64,000 nucleotides of DNA from the NCBI GenBank assembly GCA_001603805.1, contig LUZY01000008.1:124001-188000 (forward strand). Direction: 5' to 3'. Below the pieces are notes generated by a model. It was not told the origin of the DNA. It saw only the letters and a program-made list of their open reading frames with translations, and searched no databases. This stretch comes from Deferribacterales bacterium Deferri_01. Lineage in GTDB: Bacteria; Chrysiogenota; Deferribacteres; Deferribacterales; Geovibrionaceae. This document shows positions 12,591-45,419 of the stretch, one piece after another; position 1 is the stretch's first letter; each line of letters begins with the position of its first letter. The position numbers and the translations under genes are program-made.

Positions 12591-13058
12591 TTATTTCCAG
12601 TTAGCTCCCTCTTCGGCGAGAAGTTTTTCTTTTTTATGAACTCCGCTTGAATAATTTCCCAGCCCGTTTGCTCTCACAACTCTGTGACATGGAACAATAA
12701 GCGGATATGGATTTGTCGCCATAGCTGTTCCCACGGCTCTTGCGGCATTTTTGCTCCCGCTGATTTCCGCAAGTTTTCCGTAAGTAAGAACCTCGCCCTT
12801 CGGGATATTGAACAGGTTTCTGTAAACAGATTTATGAAATTCGCTTCTGCCTTCAAAAACAAGCTCATCGAATTTAAGGGGGCATTCACCCGCAGGGTAT
12901 GATTCCAGATAAGCACATATTTTCTCATGCTCTTTCTTCATAGGCTGAACATCATATTCCTCCGGACGTATGAGGCACACTTCCACAAGCGTACCTTTGT
13001 CGTCAAATACCGGGAAAACATCACCGATGTGCTTGTTTTGAAGGTGAACCATATACAT
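12591..13058 (-). CDS. ogt: Methylated-DNA--protein-cysteine methyltransferase (Ogt/AGT family)
   Basis: This protein repairs O6-alkylguanine by moving the alkyl group to its own cysteine. The 155-residue product holds the active-site motif PCHRVVRANG at about 123-132. The DNA-recognition helix region FNIPKGEVLTYGKLAEISGSKNAARAVG lies at about 87-114. There is a short N-terminal domain of the Ogt type and no Ada AraC domain. ATG 13058 is one base after the thiH stop; an ATG two codons later is also possible. Expression probably comes from the thiG-thiH transcript. Confidence 0.93.
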   Translation of the reverse strand: MYMVHLQNKHIGDVFPVFDDKGTLVEVCLIRPEEYDVQPMKKEHEKICAYLESYPAGECPLKFDELVFEGRSEFHKSVYRNLFNIPKGEVLTYGKLAEISGSKNAARAVGTAMATNPYPLIVPCHRVVRANGLGNYSSGVHKKEKLLAEEGANWK

Positions 13059-22403: not shown

Positions 22404-22413
22404 ATAACCACAT

Positions 22414-22495
22414 CCGTGGGGGTGCTTGCCGATGAAAGGGCAGGCTGAGAGAGTCCCCGTAACCTGATCCGGATAATGCCGGCGTAGGGAAACGG
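22414..22495 (+). promoter_or_regulatory. TPP riboswitch (THI element)
   Basis: All conserved THI-box blocks are present in order: GGGGGTGC, GCTGAGAGAG, then AACCTGATCCGGATAATGCC and GGCGTAGGGAA. The outer P1 stem is CCGT / ACGG. It senses thiamine pyrophosphate and lies 91 bp before thiC. No strong terminator hairpin with a T run follows. CCTGC (22541-22545) can pair with GCAGG at the thiC ribosome site (22573-22577), so control of translation is the more likely mechanism; that last point is inference. Confidence 0.97.
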
Positions 22496-22586
22496 TTTTT
22501 CTTCTTTAGTCTATTCCAAGCCTTTTTCACCCAGCCTGTTCCTGCGGAATATAATCAATAGTTCACTTAAAGGCAGGTATAAATTC

Positions 22587-36632: not shown

Positions 36633-38857
36633 CAAATACTTACATTATACGAATCAAAGGGATTGTGCAGGGTGTCGGCTTCCGCCCGTTTGTGTATCAG
36701 CTTGCTTCGGATAAGGGGTTAAAGGGCTATGTGCTTAATGACTCAGCCGGAGTGGAGATAGGGGTTGAATGTCCGTATGAAGCAGCCGCAGGGTTTGCCG
36801 ATGAAGTCAGAAGGCTTGCCCCTCCTCTTTCACACATAGTTTCTGTTAAAATAACAGAAGGGGTGGAAAATGGTTTTCACGGCTTTGAAATCAGAGAATC
36901 TGAGAATACTGACGGTCTGACACTGGTTTCCCCTGATGTGGCTATATGCCCGGACTGCCGCAGAGAACTGTTTGACAAATCAGACAGACGCTATAAGTAC
37001 CCCTTCATAAACTGCACCAATTGCGGACCCAGATATTCCATAATAAAAGCAATACCCTACGATAGAAAAATGACAACAATGAGCAGTTTTGCCATGTGCA
37101 GAGACTGCGAATCAGAATATAAAAACCCTGCTGACAGACGTTTTCATGCACAGCCTGACTGCTGTCCGGTCTGCGGACCGCAGGTCTACGGCTTCGGGCT
37201 AAACGGGGATGATGCTTTACAGGCGGCGGCTGATGCTGTGAATAAAGGCGAAATCCTCGCCATGAAGGGCTTGGGCGGTTACCATCTAATTTGTGACGCT
37301 ATGAACGATTCTGCTGTTAACAGACTGCGGGAGCTTAAGCGCAGGGGCGAAAAACCATTCGCCGTGATGTGTGCTGATGCGGTTGTACTCGAAAAATACC
37401 GCCCTTTGAGCGATACAGAAAAAAATATAATCACAAGTCCGCAGGCTCCGGTTCTCCTTCTGGACTGGGATAATCCTCCTTTTTCCACCGCAGTAAACCC
37501 CATGGGGAGCAATGTAGGCGTCATGACAGCCTATACCCCTCTCCATGCTGTGCTGATGAGCCGTCTTGATACGGACTTTATAATAGCCACAAGCGGAAAC
37601 CTGCGTGATGAGCCTATCTGCATAAATGAAGCAGAGGCGGAAGAAAAACTGAAGCATTATACGGATAAATTCCTTCATCATAACAGAGATATACATAACA
37701 GAGTGGATGACTCCGTGGCGGCAGTTGCCTGCGGTTTTCCATATGTTCTGCGCCGTGCAAGGGGCTTTGCGCCCTATCCTGTGATGCTGCCTTTTGAGGC
37801 GGATATACCCGTGGCGGGTGCGGGAGCGCATCTTAAAAACGGGATCTGCTTCGCCTCCGGCGGATACGCATTTCCGGGGCAGTACATAGGCGACCTTGAC
37901 AACCCCGAAACACGGGACTTTTATGCCGAAACATGGGATAAAATGCGTCTGTTGCTCGGCATAGAGCCAAAGAAGATTATTACAGATACTCACCCTGATT
38001 ATTTCAGCACCCGATTTGCCGCAGAAACAGGGATTGAGACCGTTACTTTGCAGCATCATCTGGCGCATTTTTATGCTGTTCTGGGAGAAAACGGACACAC
38101 CGGCGATTCTTTAGGGCTGATACTGGACGGAACCGGACTCGGAACAGACGGACGGATATGGGGCGGAGAACTATTTGTCAGGAAAGATAAAACCGTGACA
38201 CGTTCCACTCATTTGCCGTATATTTTACAGCCTGCTATGGATACTGCGGCGAAAAAGCCCGTGATGATGCTTGTTTCGCTGATGAAGGCATACGGGCTGG
38301 AAGAATACACTGATTTTCTTTACGAAAGATTTCCTCAGATGCAGACTGTTCTGAAACTCACTGAAAAAATAGTGGAAACAAGGCTGAACTCCATCGAAAC
38401 CTCCAGCACCGGGAGGCTTTTTGAGGCAGCAGGGACTCTGGTTTCAGGTATAGCAGAAAATGATTTTGAAGCACATCTGGCGATAAAGCTGGAATATATG
38501 GCGGATAAAACTGTCACAGACTATTATGATACAGGTGAAATGAATCCGGCGGGGCTGTTTGATGGGCTTTTTCATGACCTGACATCCGGCGTTCCGCAGT
38601 CCGTATGCTCCGCAAGATTCCACAACGGTTTTGCCCGCATGCTCCTGAATGCCTGCATTAAACATGGCAGCGGAATAAAGCATGTAGCTCTCTCCGGCGG
38701 TGTGTTCCAGAATATGCTTCTGCTTGAGCGAGTTACATCTCTCCTGAAAGCAAACGGATTCTCCCCCCTGATTCACGGCAGAATTCCTGCTAATGACGGT
38801 TGTATCTCCCTTGGGCAGATCTGCGGTTATGTTTATGGTGATAGGATAAATTTTTAA
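36629..38857 (+). CDS. hypF: [NiFe]-hydrogenase maturation carbamoyltransferase HypF
   Basis: HypF makes thiocarbamate on HypE from carbamoyl phosphate, for the cyanide ligands of [NiFe] hydrogenases. The 742-residue protein has all domains: acylphosphatase (GIVQGVGFRPFVYQ at about 9-22), two zinc fingers (CPDC and CTNC near 105-135, CRDC and CPVC near 155-185), YrdC-like ATP-binding (about 195-380), and the Kae1-like carbamoyltransferase (HHLAHFYA near 475, LDGTGLGTDG near 495). ATG 36629 overlaps the trkH stop. No other hyp or hydrogenase gene is in the window, so the target enzyme is elsewhere. Its last 61 bp are copied downstream at 38965-39025. Confidence 0.96.
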   Translation: MTNTYIIRIKGIVQGVGFRPFVYQLASDKGLKGYVLNDSAGVEIGVECPYEAAAGFADEVRRLAPPLSHIVSVKITEGVENGFHGFEIRESENTDGLTLVSPDVAICPDCRRELFDKSDRRYKYPFINCTNCGPRYSIIKAIPYDRKMTTMSSFAMCRDCESEYKNPADRRFHAQPDCCPVCGPQVYGFGLNGDDALQAAADAVNKGEILAMKGLGGYHLICDAMNDSAVNRLRELKRRGEKPFAVMCADAVVLEKYRPLSDTEKNIITSPQAPVLLLDWDNPPFSTAVNPMGSNVGVMTAYTPLHAVLMSRLDTDFIIATSGNLRDEPICINEAEAEEKLKHYTDKFLHHNRDIHNRVDDSVAAVACGFPYVLRRARGFAPYPVMLPFEADIPVAGAGAHLKNGICFASGGYAFPGQYIGDLDNPETRDFYAETWDKMRLLLGIEPKKIITDTHPDYFSTRFAAETGIETVTLQHHLAHFYAVLGENGHTGDSLGLILDGTGLGTDGRIWGGELFVRKDKTVTRSTHLPYILQPAMDTAAKKPVMMLVSLMKAYGLEEYTDFLYERFPQMQTVLKLTEKIVETRLNSIETSSTGRLFEAAGTLVSGIAENDFEAHLAIKLEYMADKTVTDYYDTGEMNPAGLFDGLFHDLTSGVPQSVCSARFHNGFARMLLNACIKHGSGIKHVALSGGVFQNMLLLERVTSLLKANGFSPLIHGRIPANDGCISLGQICGYVYGDRINF

Positions 38858-38859
38858 AC

Positions 38860-38953
38860 TGATGCCATGGATGGCATCACGTCGTGCGTAGCGAAGCCTT
38901 GTTTTACAAGGCGCGAGCGTGTACATCAGCCTGACAGGATGTACAGGCTGATG
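38860..38953 (+). ncRNA. Three-hairpin GGA-loop repeat element, copy A (candidate CsrA-binding RNA)
   Basis: This 94-bp element starts 2 bp after the hypF stop. Hairpin 1 (38860-38879) is TGATGCC / GGCATCA with loop ATGGAT. Hairpin 2 (38896-38912) is GCCTTG / CAAGGC. Hairpin 3 (38924-38953) is a perfect 10-bp stem CATCAGCCTG / CAGGCTGATG with loop ACAGGATGTA. The linkers (CGTGCGTAGCGAA and GCGAGCGTGT) match those of the array at 44191-44559, but the stems have different bases and still pair. Loops with a GGA core on stems are how CsrA is bound in CsrB-type RNAs. Strand is given as plus because GGA loops appear there and hypF reads into it. Transcription and function are inferred. Confidence 0.6.
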
Positions 38954-38964
38954 CTGATAATACA

Positions 38965-39025
38965 GACGGTTGTATCTCCCTTGGGCAGATCTACGGTTAT
39001 GTTTATGGTGATAGAATAAATTTTT
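38965..39025 (+). repeat. Duplicated 3' end of hypF
   Basis: These 61 bp repeat 38795-38855, the last codons of hypF, with two mismatches (59 of 61 identical). The GGA-hairpin element lies exactly between the two copies. It is not a gene; it looks like a remnant of duplication linked with the element. The rest of the gap, 39026-39216, is A+T-rich and shows nothing I can name beyond the lnt upstream region. Confidence 0.85.
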
Positions 39026-42988: not shown

Positions 42989-43222
42989 TTATCCCTCGCA
43001 GGGCTTTATAAAAATTTTGGTTTCAACATCAATATATTCCGCATACCACACAGCGAAACCGTCTTCAATCCATTTGAGATCTACTTCGTTCATGCCTTTC
43101 GTGAGCTTATCGTACTCTGCCTCACGGTCTCTGGCTATCTGTTTTTCGCCTTCGGTAAGTTCTTCCCAGTCATCTTTCATGCGGGTGAATTCCTTTTTGA
43201 GTTCAAGAGCTTTTTCTTTCAT
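42989..43222 (-). CDS. Hypothetical small charged protein
   Basis: A 77-residue protein rich in Lys, Glu and Asp. The N-terminal 45 residues are helical and probably form a coiled coil (KKEFTRMKDDWEELTEGEKQ), followed by a mixed tail ending FIKPCEG. No signal peptide or known motif. It heads a two-gene unit with the lipoprotein gene. A good ribosome site (GGAGG-like, GAGGTAG) precedes ATG 43222. Function unknown. Confidence 0.72.
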   Translation of the reverse strand: MKEKALELKKEFTRMKDDWEELTEGEKQIARDREAEYDKLTKGMNEVDLKWIEDGFAVWYAEYIDVETKIFIKPCEG

Positions 43223-43266
43223 GACAACTACCTCCGGTTTATGTTCATTTGTTAGCGGATATTAAT

Positions 43267-43295
43267 ACCTTAATTATCTTAATTTATTTTGTCAA
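43267..43295 (-). promoter_or_regulatory. Probable promoter of the 42989-43222 / 42411-42977 unit
   Basis: On the minus strand a perfect TTGACA is 17 bp from TAAGGT. A near-palindrome AATTA-AGA-TAATT lies in the spacer and might be an operator. Confidence 0.5.
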
Positions 43296-43336
43296 CACCT
43301 CTTGCGGAAATCAGGAGCTGTTACTACTATATTAGC

Positions 43337-44176
43337 ATGAAAACTATATCTATCTTTGCCGCTGTCTTACTGTATTTTGTCCCTGATTCGGCTTTTGCAT
43401 GGGGCTTCCAGACACACCTTGCCATAGCCAGCAGTATCTTAGCGTCTGCAAACGGAGTTATTAAAGCATACCCTGCCTACTTCATGCTGGGCAATATCTT
43501 TCCTGACTTTTTCCTGTTTCTGAAAGATTTTTCGGAATATAAGCGTAATCTCGACACACATTCATGGAAAACTGTCTCAAAGCTGTTTAAGGGTATTAAA
43601 ACCGATGAGGAACAGGCATTTGCCCATGGTTATGCGGCGCATCTGTCTGCGGATATTGTGGCGCATAACCGCTTTGTCCCTCAGCATCTTATGTATATGG
43701 GTAAGGGGCGCATGGGGTCTCACCTGATGCTGGAATACGCAGAAGAGGCTCTGCACAACAACCGCTACAGCGGAACGATGATGAAACTGATGACGGAGGC
43801 GGAAGAGCTTGGCGATCTGTTTATACGGGTGATGAATATTGATCCTTCGTTTTTCGCTAAAGAGATGCACACACTTCGCCTTGCCCTAAGCTATCAGAAA
43901 ATGTTCCGCCTGCAGAAAGCTGTCAAGGCTTATAAACTTGCCACTATGCCTTCATTCAAGGAGCATTGCGTCAGCTTCCGCATCGAGGCGGAAAAGCTTG
44001 CCGGTTTATCTGTCTCCAAAGGTTTTGAAGCCCTCAGCGACTATGACCCCATGGGTAAGCAGGCTATGGAAAAAGCCCGCGAGAAACACGACAGGCTGGT
44101 AAAAAACGTGGGAATCCGCAAGATGAAGGAACGCTACCGCAACAGAGATGTTTATTCTTATATGCCGACTGATTAA
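43337..44176 (+). CDS. Secreted zinc-dependent phospholipase C-like protein
   Basis: From ATG 43337 the protein has 279 residues. The signal peptide ends DSAFA, and the mature chain would begin WGFQTHLAIA. In the zinc-dependent phospholipase C family (PF00882) the N-terminal Trp and following His are zinc ligands, so this cleavage site is telling. Further ligand-like motifs are GNIFPDFF near 55, DTHSWKT near 74, and FAHGYAAHLSADIVAHNRFVPQH near 96-118. The protein may hydrolyse lipids in the periplasm or outside, but the substrate is unknown. An in-frame ATG at 43289 would destroy the signal. The GGA-hairpin array starts 15 bp after its stop. Confidence 0.8.
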   Translation: MKTISIFAAVLLYFVPDSAFAWGFQTHLAIASSILASANGVIKAYPAYFMLGNIFPDFFLFLKDFSEYKRNLDTHSWKTVSKLFKGIKTDEEQAFAHGYAAHLSADIVAHNRFVPQHLMYMGKGRMGSHLMLEYAEEALHNNRYSGTMMKLMTEAEELGDLFIRVMNIDPSFFAKEMHTLRLALSYQKMFRLQKAVKAYKLATMPSFKEHCVSFRIEAEKLAGLSVSKGFEALSDYDPMGKQAMEKAREKHDRLVKNVGIRKMKERYRNRDVYSYMPTD

Positions 44177-44190
44177 GGTATGTTGGTTAC

Positions 44191-44559
44191 GGCGCGAGCG
44201 TGTGCTTAAAACTGACAGGATGTGCAATTTTAAGCTATGTAAATTTACAACTCCAAGGATGGAGTTGCGCCGTGTGAAGCGAAGCCGCATTAATTGCGGC
44301 GCGAGCGTGTGCTTAAAACTGACAGGATGTGCAATTTTAAGCTATGTAAATTTACAACTCCAAGGATGGAGTTGCGCCGTGTGAAGCGAAGCCGCATTAA
44401 TTGCGGCGCGAGCGTGTGCTTAAAACTGACAGGATGTGCAGTTTTAAGCTATGTAAATTTACAACTCCAAGGATGGAGTTGCGCCGTGCGAAGCGAAGCC
44501 GCATTTACTGCGGCGCGAGCGTGTGCTTAAAACTGACAGGATGTTCAGTTTTAAGCTAT
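44191..44559 (+). ncRNA. Tandem array of GGA-loop hairpins, 107-bp period (candidate CsrA-sequestering RNA)
   Basis: The block GGCGCGAGCGTGTGCTTAAA begins at 44191, 44298, 44405 and 44512, an exact 107-bp period, giving 3.4 near-identical units. Each unit folds into three hairpins. Type 3 (GCTTAAAACTG / CAGTTTTAAGC, loop ACAGGATGTG or close) occurs at 44204, 44311, 44418 and 44525. Type 1 (CAACTCC / GGAGTTG, loop AAGGAT) occurs at 44248, 44355 and 44462. Type 2 (GCCGCA / TGCGGC) has no GGA. That makes seven GGA-bearing loops in 370 nt. The element after hypF has the same order, loops and linkers but different, still-paired stems. It could be the 3' UTR of the gene at 43337-44176 or an independent RNA; no promoter is evident within it. 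Confidence 0.7.
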
Positions 44560-44563
44560 TAAG

Positions 44564-44592
44564 TTGACATTCATCATTCATTAACCTATATC
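44564..44592 (+). promoter_or_regulatory. Sigma70 promoter of the TSUP gene, giving a leaderless mRNA
   Basis: TTGACA (44564-44569), 17 bp, TATATC (44587-44592). The ATG is at 44598, only 5 bp after the -10 element, so transcription should start at or beside the A of ATG. No ribosome site is present before the ATG, in agreement. Confidence 0.7.
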
Positions 44593-44597
44593 AGTAT

Positions 44598-45419
44598 ATG
44601 ATTGAAATATTACAGCTTATCCCCGTGGGGATACTTGCGGGCGTCCTTGGTTATCTGCTGGGAATCGGCGGCGGAGTGCTGATTGTCCCTGTGCTTGTTC
44701 TTATATTCGGTTACCCGATTCACACAGCGGTGGCTGCTTCCCTTGCGTCCATAACCGTGGGCAGTGTGCTTATCTCTGCATCAAACCTCAACCGTAATTT
44801 TGTCAATGTACCCCTCGCTGTGACACTTGAGACAGTGACTATTCTCGGCGCTCTTATCGGCGGTTACATTAGTGTTTCCGTGAGCGAAAGACCTATCCTC
44901 ATCATGTTCTCCATTGTTACCCTTATAACTGCTTATCTCATGTGGAAAAAAACTGTCAGCACAGAAGATGCCGAGACCCCGCCGGATGAAGGAAACGGAT
45001 TTTATTCCGGTTCGTACATGGATGAACTGCGGGGCAGAGTGATTCACTATAAGGTAAAAAAAGTGCATTATTCTATGCTTGTTTCAGCGGGTGCAGGCGT
45101 TATCTCAAGCATGCTTGGTGTAGGCGGCGGTTTTTTCAAGGTTCCTGCTATGAATATTCTGTCCGGCGTGCCGCTGCGTGTGGCGACTGCAACAAGCAAT
45201 TTTATGATAGGTTTCACGGCTGCGGCGGGCTGTGTAGCGTACATTTTCCACGGGTATATGCTGCCGCAGCTTGCAGGCTCAATAATAGCCGGAGTTCTCA
45301 TCGGTTCAACATTCGCTACGGCAAAACTCCGCAAAGTGACGGACAGCCGAATCAAAAAACTTTTCATATTCATTCTGCTCCTCATTGCAGTGCAGATGTT
45401 CATAAGGTCGCTGGGGTAG
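44598..45419 (+). CDS. TSUP-family (TauE/SafE) sulfite/organosulfur permease
   Basis: The 273-residue membrane protein has about eight helices in two halves. Each half opens with the family repeat: LGYLLGIGGGVLIVPVL at about 17-33 and SSMLGVGGGFFKVPAM near 168-183. These are the conserved glycine-rich signatures of TauE/SafE exporters. Cargo is often sulfite, sulfoacetate or related anions, but it cannot be told here. The gene probably starts a leaderless transcript that includes the small membrane gene and the two crotonase-like genes. Confidence 0.9.
   Translation: MIEILQLIPVGILAGVLGYLLGIGGGVLIVPVLVLIFGYPIHTAVAASLASITVGSVLISASNLNRNFVNVPLAVTLETVTILGALIGGYISVSVSERPILIMFSIVTLITAYLMWKKTVSTEDAETPPDEGNGFYSGSYMDELRGRVIHYKVKKVHYSMLVSAGAGVISSMLGVGGGFFKVPAMNILSGVPLRVATATSNFMIGFTAAAGCVAYIFHGYMLPQLAGSIIAGVLIGSTFATAKLRKVTDSRIKKLFIFILLLIAVQMFIRSLG

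Follow-up and report, generated by a model that had tools for sequence, protein, structure and literature searches.

Two kinds of CsrA antagonist are known, namely small RNAs dedicated to this task and the FliW protein. The RNAs CsrB/CsrC and RsmX/Y/Z carry several A(N)GGAX or CAGGAUG hairpins on one strand, and this property is shared by the repeated element that we describe in this work. With the REP/BIME/REPIN elements, which are accompanied by RAYT (Y1), it has in common the high copy number, the extragenic location, the palindromic sequence and the frequent position after genes. In addition, it is short, non-autonomous and associated with target duplications like the DDE-derived MITEs, and resembles the eukaryotic SINEs in its short structured form, variable target duplications and 5'-junction microhomology.

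On the other hand, the element departs from each of these systems. Compared with CsrB/CsrC and RsmX/Y/Z, it is dispersed at no fewer than 67 loci, usually with two sites per copy, has a conserved linker domain, lies mostly in 3'-UTRs and has no Rfam match. REP is a single 20–40 bp palindrome with a GTAG or CGTC tag (PMC3733652), whereas our unit is 105 bp long and has three hairpins whose order and orientation are fixed, and its consensus contains no conserved tag of either kind; it also differs from the whole REP/BIME/REPIN group in its long variable target duplications, its head-to-tail arrays and the absence of Y1_Tnp from the genus. Unlike MITEs, it has no terminal inverted repeats: the end hairpins are local, with GGA on the same strand, and the duplications span 22–92 bp, whereas those of MITEs are short and of constant length. 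As for SINEs, a reverse transcriptase was not found in two of the three species that carry the element, and an RNA intermediate is here just a possibility. No bacterial element class with matching long variable target duplications was found in the literature searched.

In the window, i.e., the whole 64-kb stretch of DNA that was analysed, Tandem Repeats Finder has detected one tandem array only, at 44190–44559, with a period of 107, 3.5 copies, 98% matches and no indels. It contains seven GGA-loop hairpins, all on one strand within ~370 nt. An earlier reading made from the sequence only had described ~3.4 units of exactly this period with three hairpins each, and four ACAGGATGT plus three AAGGAT loops; both descriptions have been borne out, the latter by sequence reading. 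Its first unit, however, is not complete, being cut at the 5' side so that the array starts inside a hairpin at 44190. The start was also correctly placed ~15 nt past the stop codon of a gene, taken then as a secreted enzyme and now recognised as phospholipase C-like. The features are as follows.

38795–38855, + strand: left copy of a target duplication, the last 61 bp of hypF (flank comparison, empty sites in two sister species)
38856–38964, + strand: lone full copy of the element, which has inserted where hypF ends on its 3' side (sequence, fold, covariance model)
38860–38879 and 38923–38953, + strand: 5' and 3' outer hairpins of this hypF-end copy
38965–39025, + strand: right copy of the target duplication, the hypF-end repeat now outside the gene (same basis)
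43289–44176, + strand: upstream gene, zinc-dependent phospholipase C-like (PF00882), with the array ~15 nt past its stop codon
44190–44559, + strand: tandem array with period 107, a 5'-truncated unit followed by three full ones (sequence reading, Tandem Repeats Finder, covariance model)
44190–44241, + strand: first unit, 5'-truncated within the middle hairpin, leaving the right linker and the 3' hairpin
44248–44267, + strand: 5' hairpin in the first of the full units, with an AAGGAT hexaloop on a C-G closing pair
44268–44310, + strand: conserved linker CGCCGTGYGAAGCGAAG ... GCGAGCGTGT surrounding the variable middle hairpin, recurring at +107 and +214
44311–44342, + strand: 3' hairpin with ACAGGATGT on top
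44355–44374 and 44462–44481, + strand: further AAGGAT 5' hairpins of the same design
44204–44235, 44418–44449 and 44525–44556, + strand: the other ACAGGATGT 3' hairpins
44598–45419, + strand: downstream gene, TauE/SafE permease (PF01925)

The array strand (377 nt) folds with −154.3 kcal/mol and a z of −7.8 against shuffles, and the single-copy relative near 38855–38960 with a z of −4.5. When the covariance model of the family was run on the window, it matched the array units and the copy near 38854–38963 and nothing else; the truncated first unit (44190–44241) was a weak match only, with 33.6 bits. In an Rfam scan of the window, TPP and tRNA alone reached the gathering score while the array had no family match, which agrees with the earlier suggestion of a new family. 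The TPP riboswitch lies at 22408–22508 (RF00059, 66 bits).

Each unit consists of a 5' hairpin, CGCCGTGCGNAGCGAAG, a middle hairpin, GCGAGCGTGT, a 3' hairpin and a short tail. The 5' hairpin has a stem of ~7 bp with an ANGGAX loop and the 3' hairpin a stem of ~13 bp with an A(N)GGAX loop, both with a C-G closing pair. The middle hairpin varies in stem and loop, and the linker around it is nearly invariant. Over the family, the stem sequences diverge strongly but pairing is kept: 97.2% of the pair cells are paired, double changes occur in 24 of 32 stem pairs, and the covariation score is 0.605, compared with 0.168 for shuffled and at most 0.108 for slid alignments. By this covariation, the predicted two-hairpin structure is shown to be real. 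In the loops, A is present in 97% and GGA in 92–100%, with N and X free, and the closing C-G is found in 245/263 and 249/263 rows for the two outer hairpins. In copies at one and the same site, the middle-hairpin stem appears to have been exchanged as a block between species, with both outer hairpins retained (same-site alignments, e.g., C13:510323 and C10:83857). This suggests that the middle part may undergo conversion between copies, and some of the covariation may therefore stem from conversion. The element also occurs in a longer form, whose left linker contains an extra hairpin (..CCGGCGGTTTCTGTACCAAGCTTGCTGAAAAG..), in stretches L202, L129, L128 and L079 (L079:11372).

A covariance-model search of the genome and its relatives, as had been proposed earlier, has found the element in 67 clusters of the own genome (G000), with at least 134 copies distributed over both strands and those within any one cluster sharing one orientation; a DNA similarity search gave 59 matches in the same genome. 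The sister species G001 has at least 146 copies, and G002 at least 186 in the 438 kb around its clusters. In a second genus of the family, 26 copies occur, in a third genus 2–8 copies in two genomes, and in nearly all other relatives examined none. That is, the element is abundant in one genus, and relatives within the family have few copies or none. An exact core pattern searched in 84,980 genomes, a set that may lack entries for the own genus, matched only a Denitrovibrio assembly and, in one isolated case that is probably due to chance, Mycolicibacter. The plasmids and phages searched contained no related element, with one 26-base match at chance level.

The flanks of the copies tell how they arrived. 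In 23 of 141 clusters, the element is flanked left and right by two copies of one stretch of host DNA (direct repeats counted at a score of 16 or more), with variable lengths of 22–92 bp. For hypF and the pheS-pheT junction, sister species have neither the element nor the duplication at the orthologous site, and the same holds for the G002 insertions at 12898, 1951934 and 563732. Since these empty sites reveal insertion with target duplication, the element is mobile. At G000:C2:73376 (L070), it has inserted into the first codons of a gene, where a 51-bp duplication recreates the ribosome-binding site and the start codon downstream. The 3' junction is mostly ..TCA or ..ACA followed by the target GA, and the 5' junction often has 3–4 bases in common with the target. 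Truncation of either end occurs in some copies, and no clean bias to the 5' side was found. From two sites it had seemed that the target was the source of the left arm in the 5' hairpin, but this idea was dropped, as the empty sites overlap by only 3–4 bp and the remaining similarity is explained by remnants of a lost unit. In many arrays the repeat unit is the element plus the duplicated flank, which would fit recombination between flanking duplications.

All copies lie outside the predicted genes, and many start between −6 and +3 nt from the upstream stop codon. Where the neighbouring genes are in tandem, sense clusters outnumber antisense ones by 73 to 18 (p = 5e-9), and 39 clusters lie in convergent against 8 in divergent gaps; these calls come from a simple hexamer-based gene finder, and individual cases may therefore be wrong. 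The sense strand is preferentially the leading strand, with a ratio of 52:22 over all contexts and of 20:6 when only convergent gaps are counted. Replication alone accounts for the orientation only in part, as gene orientation contributes as well.

The loops have been followed further in copies that share one genomic site in two species (25 comparisons). In these, A/GGA changed at 6 of 185 positions and N/X at 29 of 67 (p = 5e-14), the latter drifting comparably to the middle loop and the edges of the element (38% each). A subset of 11 5' hairpins has almost the same stem in both species, which speaks against conversion from one copy to another; here the changes amount to 0/44 in A/GGA and 8/21 in N/X (p = 4e-5). 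This constraint persists independently of the covariance-model alignment, and A/GGA is apparently held in place after insertion.

An ANGGAX hexaloop directly on the stem is a published high-affinity site, in which N and X are the two bases looped out in RsmE structures (PMC4005645), and the SELEX consensus of E. coli CsrA is RUACARGGAUGU (PMC7652899). The loops of the element fit both consensus forms, and the same-site pattern, with A/GGA fixed and N/X drifting, is that of the RsmE/CsrA contacts. Because of this match, we infer that the host CsrA should be the most likely partner of the loops. Its gene (77 aa, VSVHR motif kept) is located directly after fliW (159 aa), 3.5 kb upstream of the window, so that the two genes whose presence was to be checked are both there and adjacent; the locus, C8:118800-124000 (L234), has a flagellar gene, fliW and csrA consecutively and is of the FliW-CsrA partner-switch type. 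Every element-rich genome has csrA, yet many relatives without the element have it too, which makes the co-occurrence uninformative and is a point against a CsrA sponge. A genome with csrA and fliW may also control CsrA through the FliW protein, with no RNA sponge. One E. coli CsrA dimer bridges two sites 10–63 nt apart (PMC7652899); the GGA-to-GGA spacing within a unit is ~69 nt in linear sequence, slightly more than this range, and the folded linker may shorten the distance. The conservation of the linker itself exceeds what would be needed for the binding of CsrA alone.

Based on the above analyses, we consider, with a probability of about 60%, that the array has arisen through tandem amplification of a mobile element, non-autonomous and ~105 bp long, with CsrA-type hairpins, which provides distributed paired CsrA sites. 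The element would have been amplified within one genus of Deferribacterales by insertion mostly at gene ends, where the long variable duplication (22–92 bp) would regenerate the gene border, as seen for hypF and several others, and arrays would arise by recombination between flanking duplications or between units. Transcribed copies, mainly sense in 3'-UTRs, should fold into two hairpins flanking the linker domain, with A(N)GGAX loops set immediately on top of C-G closed stems, and hundreds of copies may titrate CsrA and/or anchor it at the ends of mRNAs. That this constitutes a new class of bacterial mobile element, in which the RNA of each copy offers paired CsrA sites and the copies together act as a genome-wide sponge or anchor, kept by selection and regenerating gene ends, we propose only tentatively. 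Since the element is mobile and has CsrA-type hairpins, the two interpretations of the sequence-only reading both hold in part. Its CsrA-type sites are supported by the presence of csrA, the loop conservation and the match to the contact pattern. Its alternative, a mobile palindromic repeat, was right about mobility but not about the type, because there is neither a Y1 gene for REP/RAYT nor terminal inverted repeats for a MITE. The many scattered copies that it would have counted against CsrA sites do occur, though with no RAYT and with conserved loops.

It had preferred a dedicated CsrB/RsmZ-like small RNA encoded by the array alone, and this is now highly improbable. Seven GGA hairpins within 370 nt and csrA in the genome would suit such an RNA, but the unit belongs to a dispersed mobile element with 66 other clusters, the array does not match the Rfam models of CsrB/CsrC/RsmX/Y/Z, no sigma-70-like promoter site was found in 43000–45000, and the orthologous place, with a related copy in G001, carries none in G002 (L213). 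A purely selfish DNA, in which GGA loops and linker serve for transposase recognition on single-stranded DNA hairpins with no role for CsrA, deserves more attention, although we regard it as rather unlikely. Mobility with target duplications and the leading-strand bias, both overall and in convergent gaps, are in its favour, and so are the copies antisense to both neighbours: their GGA is intact in 15/17, compared with 91/109 in sense copies, so the relaxed constraint expected for an RNA role is absent and a purely transcript-level role is weakened. Either antisense regions are also transcribed, or the loops serve a DNA-level purpose. Against selfish DNA, A/GGA is kept in old shared copies with N/X free, which relics need not do, the pattern exactly matches that of CsrA/RsmE contacts, and the genus has no Y1 transposase.

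How the element moves bears on two further explanations. Y1_Tnp (PF01797; RAYT, IS200-type) is absent from G000–G003, i.e., the three carrier species and the moderately rich G003, and RAYT was thus rejected as mobiliser. The reverse transcriptase family PF00078 is present in G000 and absent from G001 and G002, in a search that could miss a distant enzyme; as it also occurs in relatives without the element, it was rejected likewise. Movement by target-primed reverse transcription, as in a bacterial SINE, would account for the variable 22–92 bp duplications, the fairly constant 3' junction, the short 5' microhomology and the 5'-truncated copies, but 3'-truncated copies occur as well and G002 has recent insertions despite its lack of PF00078, which makes this route distinctly improbable. 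Replication template switching between existing copies, with no dedicated enzyme, is unlikely too. It would agree with microhomology at both junctions, with a duplicated segment bounded by the points of exit and return, with the replication-strand bias and with the absence of a recognised mobiliser among the families tested, whereas random switching does not predict that most copies are full-length with an identical 3' end.

If the mobile element with CsrA-type hairpins indeed scatters selected, paired CsrA sites, over a genome, it would represent a new route to a global post-transcriptional network. The empty sites in sister species make the question of its mobiliser directly approachable. 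The own genome has an orphan PF00078 reverse transcriptase of 500 aa on C3 (L168, ORF 1219–2721), which was not found in the sister species. Another dispersed repeat, GAGATTGCTTCACCCTTTCAGGGTTCGCAATGACG, is present in the G002 stretches L061, L121 and L152, often beside or within the target duplications of the element.
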